Shown: in pieces, positions 50,335 through 58,085 of the stretch
How the letters are laid out: each line of letters begins with the position of its first letter
Position numbering within the stretch: position 1 is the stretch's first letter
Source: Nitratiruptor tergarcus DSM 16512
Lineage (GTDB): Bacteria; Campylobacterota; Campylobacteria; Campylobacterales; Nitratiruptoraceae
Direction of reading: 5' to 3'
DNA: 64,000 nt
NCBI RefSeq assembly: GCF_027946175.1
Contig: NZ_AP026671.1
Span: 1,240,001-1,304,000 of the forward strand
Translations under genes and position numbers: made by a program
The notes under the pieces: model-generated
The model's database searches: none
What the model was told of the DNA's origin: nothing
Seen by the model: the letters and a program-made list of their open reading frames with translations, nothing else

Positions 50335-50699
50335 TAATCTTTGGTCATCCCAAAATACCTAGTCCACCGATTATCACAATCAAAAGCAAAGAAGAGATCG
50401 CACAAATTCCAGCCAATGCAATTGTAGCTTTTGCGTTTGATTTCGATCTTTTGCACTACTGCCGAGACAACAACATCACTTGTGCAGTGTGGATCTCTTC
50501 TACCACTGAAGCAGTCTATGCAAATGCTCTGGAAGCAAAATTTTTGCTCTGCAACCTCCCTTTAGCAAAAGAGGTACAAAAAGTAGCTGAAAATTATCTT
50601 TTCGATGCGAAAGTGATAGCCAAAATCGATGAGAGACTCATAGAAAAAGCAATAGAAGCTGCAATTGATGGAGTACTACTCACAAACTATACGCGCTAA
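50331..50699 (+). CDS. Conserved hypothetical protein, 122 residues
   Basis: The start is GTG 50331 ([17 protein letters not shown]), with CAGGAGT upstream and a 4-nt overlap with the upstream gene (GTGA). The protein is soluble, alpha/beta in pattern, with IVAFAFDFDLLHYCRDNNI, a SSTTEAVYANALEAKFLLC stretch (about 57-75) and an acidic helical C-terminus. I do not recognise a family; the sequence looks like a small Rossmann-type domain. It overlaps alr antisense by 24 nt. Confidence 0.65.
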   Translation: MIIFGHPKIPSPPIITIKSKEEIAQIPANAIVAFAFDFDLLHYCRDNNITCAVWISSTTEAVYANALEAKFLLCNLPLAKEVQKVAENYLFDAKVIAKIDERLIEKAIEAAIDGVLLTNYTR

Positions 50700-51680
50700 G
50701 TTGGGGCTTAGTTTCACAAGCACTTCGTAACTGATTGTACCAATCTCTTTGGCTACTCTTTTTGCATCATCAAAAATGCATATCTTATCTTGCTTGCCCT
50801 CTACGATAATATTATCCATACTCACACGCCCTAAAATCTTTCCATCTACAATGCTTTTTTGAGCACGAAAAATTCCATCACCATAGCCAATATCATAAGC
50901 TGAAACCACCATATCACGATCAGCTTCAAACACGCCTCCATACCCTACCCTCTGCCCTTTTTTAAGCACTCTTGAAGAGAGCCTCCTTGCCCAAAGAGAA
51001 AGAACCGGTTTTAATGGAGGAGATTTAAAAATCTCATCAGTTTCCAAATAGCCATACGCTGCAATACCGACTCTAGCAAAATCATCCTCTATTCTTTGCT
51101 TTCGAAAGAGCGCTGCTGAGTTGCAAGAGTGAAAGAGTGGCTTTGGTAATTCATACCTTTTAACAAGCTCCAAACTTCTCTTTTTTACCTCATCAAAATT
51201 TCTCTCTTGCCAAAAAAGCTCACTGCTTAGCTCATCTGCACTGCGAAAATGGGTAAAGACGCCTTTGAGATTGAGCGCTCTTTTTTGAATAATTTTAAAA
51301 GCCTCTTCCAATTCATCTGGCACAATACCGTTGCGGTGCATCCCTGTATCGATTTTAAGCTCAATATGAGAGCCAGTGGGAAATCTTTTGAGATCTTCTA
51401 AGCTATTGATGGTATAGTGGAACTTCTCTTTTTGCTGTGGAGCATCAGCTAAAATGAGAATATAATCAAAAAGATTTTCTATTTCTTTAGCTTCAGCGGT
51501 ATTCCTTACCACAGCCCTTTTGATGCCATACTCACTTGCCAACTTGGCAATCTCCAAAAGCCCATGCCCATAGGCATTATCTTTTAAAACAATAGCAACC
51601 TTCTCATTGCCACCCGCTTTTTTGGCGATAAGCTCTAAATTGTGAAAAAAGGCGTTTTTACTAAGTTTTATATATGCCAT
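50676..51680 (-). CDS. alr: Alanine racemase
   Basis: Alr supplies D-alanine for peptidoglycan. The 334-residue PLP enzyme is slightly short. The PLP lysine is in IVLKDNAYGHGLLEIA (Lys33), HFRSADE (about 142-148) follows, and the catalytic Tyr lies in GYGGVFEADRD (about 241-251). Its start lies 2 nt downstream of the VapC-like stop, but the toxin pair and alr are probably unrelated. Confidence 0.94.
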   Translation of the reverse strand: MAYIKLSKNAFFHNLELIAKKAGGNEKVAIVLKDNAYGHGLLEIAKLASEYGIKRAVVRNTAEAKEIENLFDYILILADAPQQKEKFHYTINSLEDLKRFPTGSHIELKIDTGMHRNGIVPDELEEAFKIIQKRALNLKGVFTHFRSADELSSELFWQERNFDEVKKRSLELVKRYELPKPLFHSCNSAALFRKQRIEDDFARVGIAAYGYLETDEIFKSPPLKPVLSLWARRLSSRVLKKGQRVGYGGVFEADRDMVVSAYDIGYGDGIFRAQKSIVDGKILGRVSMDNIIVEGKQDKICIFDDAKRVAKEIGTISYEVLVKLSPNLARIVCE

Positions 51681-51682
51681 AT

Positions 51683-52105
51683 CTACTCTTTGATAAATCT
51701 ATTAAAAAATTCTTTACTATTTAAAATCTCTATATCTTTACTAACAAAATTTTCATCATTTGATATGATCATATTACAATTTTGTTTTTTTGCCATTATA
51801 TATTGAAGTGTATCTTCTAAATCTTTAAAATCCTTATCTCTTAACATCAAATCACACGCCTTTTCTACATCTTCATTTGAAAATTCAATCAATGTTAGTG
51901 TTTTTATAATTTTTTGAATGTTCAATATTGCCTTTTCTTTATCAATTTTTGCATTAATATAATATATTGTAGTAATTAAATCACAAGATGTAAAAATTTG
52001 ATGATTTAAAATTAAATATTCATACGTTTTTACACTATATTCATGAAATTCTCTTTTAATATCCAAAATATCTAAAATAATATTAGCGTCTAAAAATATT
52101 TTCAT
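51683..52105 (-). CDS. PIN-domain toxin (VapC-like)
   Basis: This 140-residue PIN protein has the N-terminal acidic motif MKIFLDANIILDILD (Asp6), a central helical region, DLEDTLQYIMAKKQNCNMIISNDENF with further acidic residues (about 95-120) and a tail EILNSKEFF. PIN toxins cut RNA, often initiator tRNA or rRNA. It overlaps the upstream antitoxin by 4 nt (ATGA). The pair is more AT-rich than its neighbours, consistent with transfer. Target unknown. Confidence 0.85.
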   Translation of the reverse strand: MKIFLDANIILDILDIKREFHEYSVKTYEYLILNHQIFTSCDLITTIYYINAKIDKEKAILNIQKIIKTLTLIEFSNEDVEKACDLMLRDKDFKDLEDTLQYIMAKKQNCNMIISNDENFVSKDIEILNSKEFFNRFIKE

Positions 52106-52341
52106 ATATTATTACCCATCTCCTCTTTTACAGATTGAATAGTTTTTCCAACTAAACTTCCAGGTTCAACTTGCATAATAGATTGAAAAGCTCTTAGTTT
52201 TTCCTCTTTGAGATACTCTTGATATTTTTCTTCTATAAGTTTTCTAATAACTTCCGATTGTGTGGTTTTTTCTTTTTTTGCAATCTCTTCCAAATGTTTG
52301 GCTATGATTTCATCTAATAAAAAATTTTTCCTCACAGTCAT
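52102..52341 (-). CDS. Ribbon-helix-helix antitoxin
   Basis: The 79-residue protein has an RHH fold signature: MTVRKNFLLDEIIAKHLEEIAKKEKTTQSEVIRKLIEE as beta strand plus two helices (about 1-38), and a C-terminal arm (about 45-79) to neutralise the toxin. Its ATG is about 30 nt downstream of a -10 flanked by inverted repeats, fitting autoregulation by the complex. Confidence 0.85.
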   Translation of the reverse strand: MTVRKNFLLDEIIAKHLEEIAKKEKTTQSEVIRKLIEEKYQEYLKEEKLRAFQSIMQVEPGSLVGKTIQSVKEEMGNNI

Positions 52342-52417: not shown

Positions 52418-52423
52418 ATTATG
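52418..52423. repeat. Left copy of IS21 target duplication
   Basis: ATTATG immediately precedes the left end of the IS21 element and is repeated at 54451-54456. Confidence 0.85.
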
Positions 52424-52473
52424 TGTCAAGTGCAACCTAAAAATGTACCAAGATGCGAAGTGAAAATGTACCA
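52424..52473. repeat. Left terminal repeat region of the IS21 element
   Basis: The end contains two copies of AAAATGTACCA (at 52440-52450 and 52463-52473) spaced 23 nt apart, the expected multiple transposase-binding repeats. Confidence 0.8.
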
Positions 52474-52481
52474 CTTTGAAA

Positions 52482-53270
52482 CTAAAAATTGTTATCGAGT
52501 CTAGTAAGGACACCAGCTTTTCTTTTTTGCTTAAGCCTGTAGCTTTCACCTTGGATATTGAGTATATGGCTATGGTGAATAAGTCTATCAAGAACAGCAG
52601 TAGTTAACGCTTCATCATTGTTTAACACCTCCTTGAATTTTGTAAAAGATAGATTGCTTGTAATGATAATTGAACCTGTTTCATATCTTTTGTTGATTAC
52701 CTGAAAAAAGAGATTGGCCTGGTTTTCATTGAGCTTGATATAGCCAAATTCATCGATAATCAAGAGTTTTACTGTATTGATAACCTTTTTGAAATAGTAC
52801 TGCAATCTGTTTGTCTGCTGGGCTATCTCAAGTTGCAATAACAGATCTGCTGCAGTGATGAATTTTGTTTTTATTCTTGCTTGTGTAGCCAAATATCCCA
52901 AAGCTATGGCCAGGTGGGTTTTCCCAACACCGCTTGGTCCAATAAGCAGGATATTTTCGGCATTCTCTATAAATCTTAAAGTAGAAAGTTCATTAATAAT
53001 ATTTCTATCTACCGCAGAAGATGAGAAATCAAACATCTCCAGAGTCTTTACTTTTGGAAAGCCTGCCATTTTTAGTGTTGTTGCTTTTGAACGCTCTATC
53101 TTCTTTTGATGTTCATATCTAAAAAGCTCAAGCAAAAAGTGACTGTATGAAAGATTCTTTTTAGCTGCTTCTTGAGCTATGGATGAAAAGCTCTCTTTAA
53201 TGGCAGGAAGTTTAAAAAGCGCAGCATACTCTTGTATCTGTTCATTTATACTGTGTATCTCTTTATGCAT
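52482..53270 (-). CDS. istB: IS21 helper ATPase IstB
   Basis: IstB is the AAA+ target-site regulator of IS21 transposition. From ATG 53270 (MHKEIHSINEQIQEY) it has 262 residues, with Walker A NILLIGPSGVGKTHLAIALG (about 108-127), Walker B LLIIDEFGYIKL (about 163-174) and VLDRLIHHSHILNIQGESYRLK near the end. A longer start at 53294 is possible. It overlaps istA by 8 nt. Confidence 0.94.
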   Translation of the reverse strand: MHKEIHSINEQIQEYAALFKLPAIKESFSSIAQEAAKKNLSYSHFLLELFRYEHQKKIERSKATTLKMAGFPKVKTLEMFDFSSSAVDRNIINELSTLRFIENAENILLIGPSGVGKTHLAIALGYLATQARIKTKFITAADLLLQLEIAQQTNRLQYYFKKVINTVKLLIIDEFGYIKLNENQANLFFQVINKRYETGSIIITSNLSFTKFKEVLNNDEALTTAVLDRLIHHSHILNIQGESYRLKQKRKAGVLTRLDNNF

Positions 53271-54339
53271 GGCAAACTCCCAAAAGCGCATCATACTCCT
53301 CTAAAGAACTCTTAGCTGTATTATGTATGTTTATGCTGTTTTTATACTTTTTATTTGACAAGGAAAGCTTTTTGTCTATGCAATTGTCATATTCATTTTT
53401 GTTATGCAAGCTTTTTGGCTTGGCTGAAATTATTAGCGGCAGCAGAGCTTTTTGCTCTTTTATAAAGAGCTCTTTTGGTTTTTGCTTCGTTGTTGCGTGC
53501 ACTCTATTATGAACGATTTCAAGCCACTGAAATATCTGGCTGTTAAGAAGCTTTGTATCTATAACAAGCGAAGAGTTTTTGAGTCTTGCTTTCAAAGGAA
53601 TATAGAAGTTTCCTTTCATATAGCCTATAACTCTCTCTACCTTCCCTTTTGTTTTTGCCCTGTAGGGTTTACAAAGTTTTGGAATAAATCCATACTCTTT
53701 GGAAAAATCCAAAAACCTCTCATTAAATCTGTGTTTTGCATTCCCGTAAGCGTTATGCTCTATCACCACGCTTTTGAGGTTGTCGTAAAGAATGGTTCTT
53801 GGCACTCCCCCAAAGAAGGCGAAAGCCTTTTTATGACAATTTATAAAACTATCAAAGCGCATATTGTCTGTAAAGCAGATAAATGCGTATCTGCTATAGC
53901 CCAAAATCATCGCAAAGGCATAAACGGGATTCTTCCCTCTTCGTATCACCGTCCAGTCAGCTTGCGCCTGCTCGCCCGGATCTGTCTCAAATCGTACTAC
54001 CTCTTCCTCTTTTACGTTCATATGCTCTTTATAAAGCCCGCTCATAAACGCCTGCAATATTCTTATCTTCCCCTCATACCCTTTGGCTGTAATCTCCCGG
54101 TATATTACCGTTGAAGGAATTTTATCCGGCAACCCTTGAGCTATTCTCTTTTTTATATACTCTTTGTATGGATCGAGCTTCGATTTGTAAACTCTCGGTT
54201 TTCTTGGCAGAAGCTTATCCTCTTTGAGTCTTTTGGATACGGTTCTTCTATCAAGTCCTGTCATCCTTGCAATAGCTCTTATGCTGTATCCTTGTCTGTA
54301 AAGTGTATGTACCATCACAAACTCCTCGTATGTAATCAC
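53263..54339 (-). CDS. istA: IS21 transposase IstA
   Basis: IstA is the DDE transposase. From GTG 54339, with GGAGG well placed upstream, it has 358 residues: an N-terminal HTH (YSIRAIARMTGLDRRTVSKRL, about 16-36), and an integrase-type core with AQADWTV (first Asp, about 130), ILYDNLKSVV (second Asp, about 183) and KGKVERVIGYMKGNF (Glu, about 231). It is on the short side for IstA (often 400-500), but both ends look complete. Confidence 0.93.
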   Translation of the reverse strand: MITYEEFVMVHTLYRQGYSIRAIARMTGLDRRTVSKRLKEDKLLPRKPRVYKSKLDPYKEYIKKRIAQGLPDKIPSTVIYREITAKGYEGKIRILQAFMSGLYKEHMNVKEEEVVRFETDPGEQAQADWTVIRRGKNPVYAFAMILGYSRYAFICFTDNMRFDSFINCHKKAFAFFGGVPRTILYDNLKSVVIEHNAYGNAKHRFNERFLDFSKEYGFIPKLCKPYRAKTKGKVERVIGYMKGNFYIPLKARLKNSSLVIDTKLLNSQIFQWLEIVHNRVHATTKQKPKELFIKEQKALLPLIISAKPKSLHNKNEYDNCIDKKLSLSNKKYKNSINIHNTAKSSLEEYDALLGVCHA

Positions 54340-54399
54340 TATTGCCTCCAAATATTTTTGGAAGCGATTATATTCTTTTATATTTCCTCATCTCATGGA

Positions 54400-54450
54400 T
54401 GGTACATTTTCATCTTGCGTCTGTGGTGTATTTTAACATTGCAGGTGACA
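54400..54450. repeat. Right terminal repeat region of the IS21 element
   Basis: TGGTACATTTT at 54400-54410 and a weaker TGGTGTATTTTA at 54424-54435 mirror the left-end repeats; the tip TGACA ends at 54450. Confidence 0.8.
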
Positions 54451-54456
54451 ATTATG
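54451..54456. repeat. Right copy of IS21 target duplication
   Basis: ATTATG directly follows the right end of the IS21 element and matches 52418-52423. Confidence 0.85.
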
Positions 54457-54575
54457 ACAAAAAACTCCTCTTTCGTAATAGCCAAAAAATGGATGATACC
54501 AAGTTTAGTTTTCTAAAAAGTTTTTAATCGTTTACACAGTACTCAATTAACCGTGAACAACTCACTTCCATGAAA
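54451..54575. other. Short gap between IS21 and the transposase remnant
   Basis: Removing the IS21 element and one ATTATG copy joins this gap to the toxin-antitoxin promoter. It holds only ORF fragments of about 20-25 codons and is very AT-rich; no gene was recognised. Confidence 0.5.
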
Positions 54576-55148
54576 TTATTTAAATACTAAATTAAACTTG
54601 ATTTTTGCTCTAATTGTTTGGATAAATGGAAATAAGAGTACAAATAGAGTTGCAAAAAAATAAGAGAGCAGTTTTTTATATGCTTTCTTAAACTTATTGT
54701 AAATCTTTTTAAGATTGTATCTATAAGTTGAAAATATTATACTGACTAGATTGCCATGCAATCCTTTTAAAAAGTTTCTTCCCATTCTATAATACTGTTT
54801 TGTATGAGAAAAAACACTTTCAATTGAAGAGCGTATTTTAAGATGTTTGTATCTTTTTTATTGTTGGGTGTTTCAATAAGCACTGTAGTTTCTGCTTTGT
54901 AATCGTGTCCTCTAAATCTTTTATCTGCCAAAAAATTGATTGTTTTATGAAAGATAGTTTGTGTCGTTTCATTTGCTTGATTGAGGACTTCTTTTAAAAT
55001 ACGATCATCATAAGGATTGCCCTTATACGTATCAGCATGGAGAATAAAGCACTCTTTTGCAGTTGTAATGAAAGTGGATTTATTACCAAATTCATGCCGT
55101 TTATGGGCTTTACCTTACGAAATACAGACAACTTCTGCTTCATGAAAG
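54576..55148 (-). pseudogene. Decayed IS5-like transposase, 3' part
   Basis: Read on the minus strand from about 55135 it gives AEVVCIS, a stop, then GKAHKRHEFGNKSTFITTA, KGNPYDDRILKEVLNQA and FLADKRFRGHDYKAETTVL in one frame, then a frameshift to RSSIESVFSHTKQYYRMGRN and FLKGLHGNLVSIIF in the frame ending at 54576. These are the second half of IS5/ISL2-type transposases (compare GNPYDGHT, DRGYRGH, RMGRNYLKG). One in-frame stop, one frameshift and a missing 5' half mark it as a remnant. It abuts the DUF262 gene's stop, so that gene's last codons may come from the insertion. Confidence 0.82.
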
Positions 55149-56897
55149 CTATAGAGTAAAATGGCCTCCTTTATCAAGAAACATCGCTCTTGTATTATAA
55201 TTCCATTCTTCAAAAATAAATTCCTTTATTTTCTCTCGTCTAAATTCAATAAATCTTTTTACATCACCTAAATTATTCCAGTCAAAACTACCATATTTTT
55301 TTGATAACTCTTCAACAATTTTATCTATTTCATTATGTGAAATAAGTGGGGCTAAATTATACGCCTCGATTTTCTTATCAACAACATTATTGCCTTTTGA
55401 TGAGTTAGAAGCAACTGTATCAATAACAAGATTACCTATATTATGTAAATATGACTCTTCAAATTCCTCTGTAAACTTTAAATTTTTTGCTTTTTTAGCA
55501 GTAATATGCTCAATTGATAATTTAAGACGTGAGTCATTTTCAAAGAAGGATTTTTTAGTTAATACAGGAAATCCTTTCTGCTTTCTTAGATAATTTTCAT
55601 ATTTGAAGAGTATATACTTCGTCACACCGTCATAGAAATCTATATTTGGCACATTTTCTTTAAATAAAGTAATTATCCTCCACCAGTTGTCACGAAAAAT
55701 TATTTTTATATCGTTGTATAGTTGAACAAAATCTCCTTTAAAATCCCTTGCAAGTTCATAAAAATATTTAACTCCCGTATCAGCTCTTTTTCCTGCAACT
55801 AATGAAATAAATGCATAAAGTTCTGCTAGACTAGCTATCTCTCTAAAATTTCTTTTGTCATCATACTTATCATATTTAAAAGAACCCATCAGTAATGGAT
55901 AAAAATTAGCTATTCGATTAAGCATAAATAGATCGTCTATTTTAGGAGCATTAATACTATTCATGACTATTTTTTCAATTATTTCAAAAGATTCCTTTAA
56001 TTCTTTACTTATTTTTTTTATTAATTTTATTTTGTTATCGCTTGAATATGTTTGATTTATGATTTCTTTTATAAAATCTTTAGGATTTCTAAATTCCTGG
56101 CCTGTCCAATTTAGGCTCGAAATGACATAATACATAATAATTTGCTCTTCTTTTATCAAACCTTCAAGGGATTCGCTTTTTCTGTAGATTTTTGCGAAAT
56201 TGTTTTCAATATCTCCTAATAATTGTTCTGATCTATTTAAAGTTATACTTACTTGGTACATCAAAAAGCTTTTAATAGCCTCTAAATCAGTTAATCTTTT
56301 CCCTCTATCATTAATCAATTCGAAAATCTGTGCTGCATCAGATTTATTGTTAACTGTATGGACCAGAACAAGAGAGTTTTCCAGTTTTTGCAATAGTTGC
56401 TCTGCAATTTCTGTGTTTAGTTTGTTTATTTCTTCCTCAAAGAATCTCTTTGCATTGAATAATCTAATTTGTGATTTAGTATCGAAATCAGTAGGCATAT
56501 TATGATTAATAATATATGTATGAAAAAAGGAATTATCGTTGTTTGAAGTATTTAACTTAAATACTCCTTCATCTTCGATATATCGCCTATATATTTTCTT
56601 TTTTAATTGACCTCTACTATTAAGAAAATCAAGGATGGCTTTTATAAATATAACTGAGGTTGTAATTCTCTGTTGTCCATCTACAATATAAATCTTAGTA
56701 AATTCATCCATTTCTCCTGCTTCATGAAATAAGAAAGTACCAAAAAAATATGGCTTATCTATCCGTTGATTTTTTAAATCATGCAGAAAGTCAACTAATT
56801 GTTTTTCCTCCCAAGTATATGCCCTTTGATATTCGGGTATTTCGAAAATTTTATCACCATCGAATATATCTTTGAATTTCAATTTGCCTTCTTGCAT
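55149..56897 (-). CDS. Single-chain DUF262/DUF1524 (GmrSD-like) protein
   Basis: The 582-residue protein has an N-terminal DUF262 domain with PEYQRAYTWEEKQLVDFL (about 21-38), FFGTFLF and IVDGQQRITT (about 71-80; DGQQR is the nucleotide-binding signature), FELINDRGKRLTDLEAIKS (about 193-211), and a C-terminal DUF1524/HNH-like nuclease domain with SIEHITAKKAK and YLHNIGNLVI...NSSKGN (about 465-510). This is the GmrS+GmrD fusion layout of type IV modification-dependent restriction enzymes. GAGGTG precedes the ATG. It stands alone beside insertion sequences. It probably defends against phage with modified DNA, but the substrate is unknown. The C-terminus GGHFTL may be altered by the abutting transposase remnant. 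Confidence 0.88.
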   Translation of the reverse strand: MQEGKLKFKDIFDGDKIFEIPEYQRAYTWEEKQLVDFLHDLKNQRIDKPYFFGTFLFHEAGEMDEFTKIYIVDGQQRITTSVIFIKAILDFLNSRGQLKKKIYRRYIEDEGVFKLNTSNNDNSFFHTYIINHNMPTDFDTKSQIRLFNAKRFFEEEINKLNTEIAEQLLQKLENSLVLVHTVNNKSDAAQIFELINDRGKRLTDLEAIKSFLMYQVSITLNRSEQLLGDIENNFAKIYRKSESLEGLIKEEQIIMYYVISSLNWTGQEFRNPKDFIKEIINQTYSSDNKIKLIKKISKELKESFEIIEKIVMNSINAPKIDDLFMLNRIANFYPLLMGSFKYDKYDDKRNFREIASLAELYAFISLVAGKRADTGVKYFYELARDFKGDFVQLYNDIKIIFRDNWWRIITLFKENVPNIDFYDGVTKYILFKYENYLRKQKGFPVLTKKSFFENDSRLKLSIEHITAKKAKNLKFTEEFEESYLHNIGNLVIDTVASNSSKGNNVVDKKIEAYNLAPLISHNEIDKIVEELSKKYGSFDWNNLGDVKRFIEFRREKIKEFIFEEWNYNTRAMFLDKGGHFTL

Positions 56898-57146
56898 AAT
56901 TTTTTCACCTCAATTATTGCATAACATTTTAATATTATTGTACTCCAAAAACTTTAAGTTATAATATTGAAAAAGACTTTTATAGCAAGAAAAAACCTAA
57001 CCTATTTTACGGTTAATAAAAATTTTTCATTAACTACACAAAATTAATCTTTAAATACAATTTTTTGCATAAAGCAGTAATAAATTTCATTTTTTGATTT
57101 TATTAATACCCCATTTTCGCTACCATAACAATTAAAAAGGCTTGGC
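56898..57146. other. AT-rich gap between the DUF262 gene and aguA
   Basis: This 249-bp stretch has no credible ORF. It is very AT-rich with many short A and T runs and must hold the two divergent promoters. No clear extended -10 was found for aguA; a weak TACAAT on the minus strand (56937-56942) may serve the DUF262 gene. It marks the right border of the accessory island. Confidence 0.5.
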
Positions 57147-58085
57147 ATGAGACTCCCTGCAGAATGGGAAGAGCAAAAGGCGCTTTTGCTTGCCTATCCG
57201 CACGAAAAGAGTGATTGGCTACCCTATCTGGATGAGATAAGAGAGTTTTACAAAGAGTTTATCTCTATTGTAGCTCACTATCAAGATGTCTATTTAATCA
57301 CACAAAAAGCTCTTAATTTCCCTCCAACAAAACATAATATACACATCTTCAAAGCCCAAACAAACGATACATGGGTGCGGGATTTTGGGGCCATCACTGT
57401 TTTTGAAAACAATAAAACAAAACTTCTTGATTTTACATTCAACGGCTGGGGGCTAAAATTTCCAGCAAACTACGATAATCAGCTCAATAGAAAAATTTTT
57501 CATACCAAAAAGATTGGCTTTGTATTAGAAGGTGGTAGTATCGATAGCAATGGAGAGGGAGTCTTGCTCACTACCTCAACATGCCTTTTGGAAGCCAATA
57601 GAAATCCCCATCTATCAAAAGATGAAATTGAAAAGCAACTCAAAACCTTCTTTGGACTTAAAAAGATTTTGTGGCTAAATCACGGCTTTTTAGAAGGAGA
57701 TGATACAGACAGCCATATCGACATGCTAGCGCGCTTCGTCTCTGCTAATAAAATTGCCTATATCACTTGTGACAACAAAGATGACATACACTATATCGAA
57801 TTAAAATTGATGGAAAAAGAGCTGCAAAGCTTTGGATTTGAGTTAGTTCCTTTGCCATTCGTCTCAGCTAAATATTTTGAAAATGAAAGACTTCCAGTAA
57901 GTTATGCCAACTTTGTTATAATAAATGGTGCAGTAATAATGCCAACATATAATGATCCAAATGACGAAGAGGCTTTGAAAATTTTTCAAAAACTTTTCCC
58001 ATCACGAGATATTATTGGACTTGATGCCTCAGTGCTTATTCGCCAGCACGGCTCGATTCATTGCAGCTGTATGAATATATTTTAA
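57147..58085 (+). CDS. aguA: Agmatine deiminase
   Basis: AguA hydrolyses agmatine to N-carbamoylputrescine and ammonia. The 312-residue protein is on the short side. It has LPAEWEEQKALLLAYPHEK at the N-terminus, NDTWVRDFGAITV (about 72-84), VLEGGSIDSNGEG (about 126-138), GDDTDSHIDMLARFV (about 185-199) and the catalytic Cys in HGSIHCSCMNIF at the end. AguB (N-carbamoylputrescine amidase) is encoded 2.3 kb downstream on the same strand, with znuABC between. Together they make putrescine. Confidence 0.93.
   Translation: MRLPAEWEEQKALLLAYPHEKSDWLPYLDEIREFYKEFISIVAHYQDVYLITQKALNFPPTKHNIHIFKAQTNDTWVRDFGAITVFENNKTKLLDFTFNGWGLKFPANYDNQLNRKIFHTKKIGFVLEGGSIDSNGEGVLLTTSTCLLEANRNPHLSKDEIEKQLKTFFGLKKILWLNHGFLEGDDTDSHIDMLARFVSANKIAYITCDNKDDIHYIELKLMEKELQSFGFELVPLPFVSAKYFENERLPVSYANFVIINGAVIMPTYNDPNDEEALKIFQKLFPSRDIIGLDASVLIRQHGSIHCSCMNIF

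Follow-up and report, generated by a model that had tools for sequence, protein, structure and literature searches.

An apparently intact single-chain GmrSD-type gene in a variable spot of the Nitratiruptor tergarcus genome, predicted to encode a restriction nuclease

One open reading frame in the window (the whole 64,000-nucleotide stretch of DNA analysed) carries both halves of a GmrSD-type enzyme on a single chain, and we propose that it is an apparently intact and probably functional gene for a predicted restriction nuclease, lying in a variable spot. The protein belongs to an already known kind, that of GmrSD and HEC-06, and we consider it likely that it is an autonomous one-gene restriction nuclease that was probably acquired horizontally. 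Both domains, all of the motif residues, a family-like predicted fold, a complete conserved C-terminus and a single-gene organisation were found in the sequence and in the model built on it. By analogy with related enzymes the protein may have NTPase and nuclease activity and a role in defence, and analogy is likewise the guide to the DNA feature that it would recognise. The first-pass annotation had singled the gene out as a lone defence candidate; from its sequence it is a plausible defence gene, the observation was confirmed and the interpretation as a whole is partly supported. The features discussed are collected in Table 1.

Table 1. Coordinates, in window positions, of the gmrSD-type gene and adjoining features
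Feature	Position	Strand	Evidence
CDS, single-chain DUF262-DUF1524 (GmrSD-type) protein, 582 aa	55149..56897	(-)	ORF list, Pfam, PADLOC
Shine-Dalgarno-like GAGGTG, 8 nt 5' of ATG	56906..56911	(-)	read off sequence
GmrSD_N / DUF262, residues 9-213, putative NTPase and DNA sensor	56259..56873	(-)	Pfam PF03235, E 4.4e-34
DGQQR motif, residues 73-77	56667..56681	(-)	invariant in A1 and A2
GmrSD_C / DUF1524, residues 412-523, putative HNH nuclease	55329..55664	(-)	Pfam PF07510, E 2.7e-11
HNH core E463-H464...N489...N498	55404..55511	(-)	alignments A1 and A2, AlphaFold2 model
Non-conserved C-terminal tail, residues 568-582	55152..55196	(-)	pLDDT, relatives' ends, transposase homology
IS5-family transposase remnant, in-frame stop and frameshift	54642..55156 (about)	(-)	tblastn with intact relative
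IS21 element (istA, istB)	52423..54453	(-)	Pfam, NCBIfam, genome comparison
VapBC-like toxin-antitoxin pair: PIN 51683-52105, ribbon-helix-helix 52102-52341	51683..52341	(-)	Pfam

The frame begins with ATG and is not a product of chance, as 500 mononucleotide shuffles of its bases gave no stop-free stretch longer than 170 aa. Both Pfam domains scored above their gathering cut-offs (118.8 against 33.2 bits for GmrSD_N and 44 against 23 bits for GmrSD_C), which bears out the earlier description of one chain joining DUF262, with its DGQQR, to a DUF1524/HNH end; no NCBIfam model matched the 582-aa protein. The motifs published for GmrS are QR, (I/V)DGQQR and FxxxN, with E/D-H-N-N for GmrD (as described in PMC4619093), and the window protein has them all, as Q24-R25, D73-R77 and F192..N196 in the DUF262 part and as E463, H464, N489 and N498 in the DUF1524 part. 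Neither alignment (A1, 14 sequences; A2, 18 sequences) varies at D73-R77, H464, N489 or N498, while E463 is invariant across A2 and nearly so in A1. Activity is reported to be lost in the D507A, H508A and N522A variants of Eco94GmrSD (PMC4437046). The first-pass annotation had named the loss of catalytic residues or truncation of the HNH core as what would speak against it; the residues proved invariant and the core complete, and it was not refuted. A1 comprises 14 of 21 aligned sequences, L005, L008, L014, L019, L024, L028 and L035 having been left out for being fragmentary, 5'-shortened or more distant. A2 comprises the window protein and 17 of 22 listed loci (L070, L077, L079, L089 and L195 left out); the 22 were selected from 160, each underlying search giving its best 80 loci. 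The one departure from the family pattern is the xPQ that follows the catalytic histidine and a hydrophobic residue, which reads TAK (HITAK against the usual H(I/L/V)xPQ). Its proline is absent from three of the 14 sequences of A1 (the window protein, L004 and L018) and two of the 18 of A2 (the window protein and L068); the two nearest relatives lack it too, and it is not among the residues given as essential for Eco94GmrSD in the available text of PMC4437046.

An AlphaFold2 model built on A2 (mean pLDDT 84.4, pTM 0.83) has both domains on one chain with helices from residue 204 to 440 between them. Its nuclease part is less certain (block mean pLDDT 61-86 over residues 461-520, and below 50 for residues 498-500, N498 included); the HNH region consists of strands 461-464 and 490-493 and a helix at 506-512. 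Foldseek returned five PDB chains at E<=0.001, every one of the GmrSD family: DndI (9jfl, 4.6e-14 and 3.2e-13), SspE (7drs, 7.1e-10) and BrxU (7p9k, 1.1e-4; 7p9m, 7.6e-4), with query-length TM-scores that were low throughout (0.45 and 0.43, 0.41, and 0.32 and 0.30, respectively). VIA-align 2 gave the same order, with Z 21.6 for DndI (508 residues, rmsd 9.8), 16.3 for SspE (527 residues, rmsd 17.8) and 10.7 for BrxU (419 residues, rmsd 15.4), and the C-terminal construct of SspE (7dri_C) reached Z 13.4 over 344 residues at an rmsd of 4.2. The large full-length rmsd values suggest that the lobes are arranged differently in the model. A sequence-profile search matched DndI at 8.5e-43, SspE at 1.9e-24 and BrxU at 1.5e-5, and also an 818-aa DUF262 protein, 20yv, at 1.7e-26.

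As DndI is the closest solved structure by both profile and VIA-align 2, the window protein might be a phosphorothioate-sensing effector of the DndI/SspE type that is controlled by sulfur marks on the host DNA. Y25 of DndI (PMC11662687) aligns, by reading of the alignment, with Y23 of the window protein; however, Y23 is invariant in A1 and A2 and so is not diagnostic for the DndI type. DndI is reported to stay active and to harm cells without the phosphorothioate mark (PMC11662687). The search for sulfur-marking genes covered DndC, DndD and SspC. In profile searches of the window genome (1.94 Mb, 99.99% complete) nothing matched DndC at E<=1 or DndD at E<=0.001, whereas these two models gave signal below the cut-off in 8 of 14 and 9 of 14 control genomes, respectively. 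SspC hits were confined to two P-loop stretches, each about 68 residues long (E 2.9e-4 and 7.1e-4). These searches disfavour phosphorothioate dependence in cis, and sensing of sulfur marks in cis is unlikely because DndC and DndD were not found and SspC gave P-loop matches only; an effector of this type is highly improbable. The gene is alone in a nearly complete genome in which no DndC, DndD or full SspC match was found, and is for this reason a clean candidate for asking what such enzymes recognise without a sulfur-marking cassette.

Beyond its last conserved residues the gene runs into the remains of an IS5-family transposase. The remnant matches residues 277-452 of the 463 of an intact transposase from genome G150 (L229; tblastn), which is of the IS5 family by NCBIfam (E 9.2e-146). 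Recognisable homology begins at 55156, within codon 581, so that only the end of this codon, codon 582 and the stop would lie in IS5 DNA. The true junction could lie a little further upstream, in transposase sequence that may be too variable for alignment. Derivation of the tail from the transposase is unsupported beyond the tail's end, as recognisable homology covers codon 581 onward only and not the other approximately 13 residues. In the model the last helix spans residues 543-564, and pLDDT is below 50 over residues 569-582. Conservation stops near W565, and the roughly 15 residues of tail beyond it are predicted to be disordered. In the A1-search and A2 alignments most relatives stop close to the W565 position, give or take a few residues, and a few extend into longer tails that are their own. 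The C-terminus, on this comparison, has gained a short tail and lost no conserved residue. It had been suggested at first that a few residues might have been lost or gained where the C-terminus abuts the transposase; the gain stands and the loss does not, since alignment to homologues, a check proposed at the same time, shows the conserved part reaching W565 uncut. A truncated HNH core was ruled out because all motif residues and helix 543-564 are present.

The same junction bears on whether the gene could be a functionless passenger with a foreign tail, one that has stayed intact by chance while the island around it decays. Its closeness to a dead transposase and its unconserved, presumably disordered tail would fit this, as would the lack of a terminator-like site in 54500-57200 and a count of 12 promoter-like sites there against a shuffle mean of 16.5, a scan that is itself uninformative. 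The GC content of the gene is 0.279, that of the toxin-antitoxin pair 0.234 and that of the whole window 0.381. The difference between gene and window speaks for the proposed horizontally acquired nuclease, but low GC in a spot rich in insertion sequences could also mark a gene on its way out. However, a whole frame of 582 codons has been kept in AT-rich DNA with every motif residue intact, a Shine-Dalgarno-like site is present and tail length varies among relatives, and we regard a passenger as quite unlikely.

The interval that contains the gene is bounded by an alanine-racemase-like ORF (50676-51680, a name given by eye) and by a PAD_porph/agmatine deiminase gene (57147-58085, by Pfam). The gene is alone in an island with two insertion sequences and a toxin-antitoxin pair, as first described, these being the IS21 element, the IS5 remnant and the PIN/ribbon-helix-helix pair. 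The IS21 element is present in three genomic copies, the other two being 100% identical over 2031 and 2028 bases. Among ORFs of at least 60 aa from the alanine-racemase-like gene to the agmatine deiminase gene, with PADLOC run on three ORFs, no other defence gene was recognised. No partner for a two-gene system was recognised adjoining the gene either, and DUF262 ORFs of 489 and 142 aa belong to a separate locus at the far end of contig 1. We note that this locus (L065:619-7264, near the contig end) is a second defence-like cluster, with a WYL regulator, an AAA ATPase that matches IetA, a protein that matches ShosA and the two DUF262 ORFs in tandem, the second of which stops inside the DUF262 profile. 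At the corresponding position genome G001 has an interval of about 0.6 kb between the alanine racemase and agmatine deiminase genes, with one 172-aa ORF (L059:1798-2316) that matches nothing in Pfam, NCBIfam or PADLOC. The interval of G011 measures about 1.9 kb (L060:1833-3635) and holds a PemK toxin, a MazE-like ORF that falls just short of the Pfam cut-off, and a DUF4268 protein with a match to the PADLOC candidate PDC-S11 (E 1.9e-123). These differing contents mean that the spot is variable, and in one relative another defence-type gene occupies it. In G004 the counterpart of the other flank was not found within 11 kb; a 457-aa protein with near-identical repeats, judged by eye, adjoins the agmatine deiminase gene there (L058:1647-3020).

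At E<=0.001 there was a match in 33 of 100 relatives, mostly partial or distant, and at E<=1e-25 the counts were 15 of 398 genomes of the order and 21 of 397 of the phylum, two counts that overlap and both include the window's own genome. Within the genus the distribution is patchy (2 of 16 genomes at E<=1e-25, own included), which speaks for the proposed horizontally acquired nuclease. A scan of genome contigs with the single protein found no relative, but an alignment-based scan did; plasmid and phage records (642 and 13) gave only places below 60% identity. Relatives L005 and L019 lie at or near contig ends and are therefore not judgeable, the gene of G118 being in two pieces on two contigs (L019 and L028), and no defence partner was recognised by eye beside the Planktothrix relative, L069. 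One or two stops are listed inside the matched spans of L020, L029, L030, L032 and L035; these five frames are open to the conserved end, so the stops would appear to be where the genes themselves finish. Among the best 80 loci of each search, the two nearest full-length relatives are 43-44% identical to the window protein. The nearest, in G226, is nested in a JetABCD (Wadjet) operon, where it separates JetC from JetD and has the reverse orientation (L062:4379-11534); no paper combining a GmrSD gene, Wadjet and such embedding was found. The other, in G008 of the same genus, lies, preceded by a small ORF, in the gap from hypD to a hypE-like gene that has AIRS domains (L061:4983-7111). In four of five other genomes of the genus, the window's own included, no more than about 75 bases part these flanks, and in the fifth, G003, a PemK-like toxin ORF stands between them (Pfam 7.1e-17, L231:2496-2846). 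G008 retains, by alignment, about the first 15 codons of the G003-type PemK-like ORF, after which the gmrSD-type gene follows. As the two nearest full-length relatives occupy nested and replaced positions, their location argues for a role in defence. One idea that would join the Wadjet (G226) and PemK (G008) cases is that of a DndI-like nuclease outside any sulfur-marking cassette, which would use another self mark, for example ordinary DNA methylation, and spread as a single mobile gene that enters or replaces parts of defence and toxin-antitoxin loci; we hold this to be very doubtful.

For an autonomous restriction nuclease of the GmrSD/HEC-06 kind, we propose that DUF262 at the N-terminus, with its ParB/Srx fold and DGQQR pocket, would bind NTP and DNA and sense a chemical feature of the DNA. 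By way of the helical linker, hydrolysis of the NTP might then move the two lobes relative to each other, and the HNH site of DUF1524 (E463-H464-N489-N498, with a divalent metal) would cut or nick incoming phage or plasmid DNA. As to the feature sensed, a special case is that the enzyme specifically restricts DNA with glucosylated hydroxymethylcytosine, as do the GmrSD enzymes that exclude T-even phages. The domain order and the E/D-H-N-N site are indeed those of GmrSD and Eco94GmrSD (as described in PMC4619093 and PMC4437046). However, enzymes that share the fold are reported to sense differing features, 5mC, 5hmC and glc-5hmC for BrxU and sulfur marks for SspE and DndI (PMC10952713; PMC11662687), so glucosylated DNA is one possibility among several, and the nearest model found is HEC-06 and the nearest structure found DndI, Eco94GmrSD being compared by description. 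Specificity for glucosylated DNA is therefore unlikely in our judgement. The first-pass annotation had looked to phages with glucosylated DNA; this is unsupported, as DndI and HEC-06 are closest and BrxU more distant, and the sequence does not fix the substrate. With this gene, a family whose known members differ in the DNA features they recognise gains a putative DUF262-DUF1524 nuclease that is apparently intact and encoded by one gene.

Turning to known systems, the best among the PADLOC models listed was HEC-06 (E 2e-43), followed by Orf5 (4.8e-34), with 3.7e-15 for the best SspE model, ranked by E-value without PADLOC's own system cut-offs. HEC-06 (Hma-embedded candidate 06; PDLC04157, 04154, 04155) is likewise one gene of the DUF262-DUF1524 type and is reported to act independently, as a single gene (PMC11411939), and to be antiviral in assays (PMC12988326); however, no Hma operon was recognised around the window gene and the match is limited to residues 15-516. 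BrxU (7P9K), which has been equated with HEC-05, shares the GmrSD-family fold but is a weaker match than DndI or SspE, and by eye no BREX gene was recognised among the listed ORFs of the window. SspE (7DRS, 6JIV) is similar in fold, but its entries are 771 aa long and it works with SspABCD. For a phage-resistant strain, PMC8713573 discusses a DUF262-DUF1524 protein of Campylobacter jejuni as a homologue of SspE. TgvAB of Vibrio cholerae, as described, also has GmrSD-type domains, but as two obligatory proteins where one is found here. The type IV enzymes Eco94GmrSD and CT596 GmrSD have the domain order and nuclease site in common with the window protein (PMC4619093 and PMC4437046, by description) and differ from it in having xPQ in place of TAK. 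DndI of Salmonella (9JFL) is the closest solved structure over the full length and, according to PMC11662687, likewise has both domains, DGQQR and HNH, although it is only about 20% identical to the window protein (TM 0.45) and has IscS-DndBCDE as partners, where the window protein appears to stand as a single gene.
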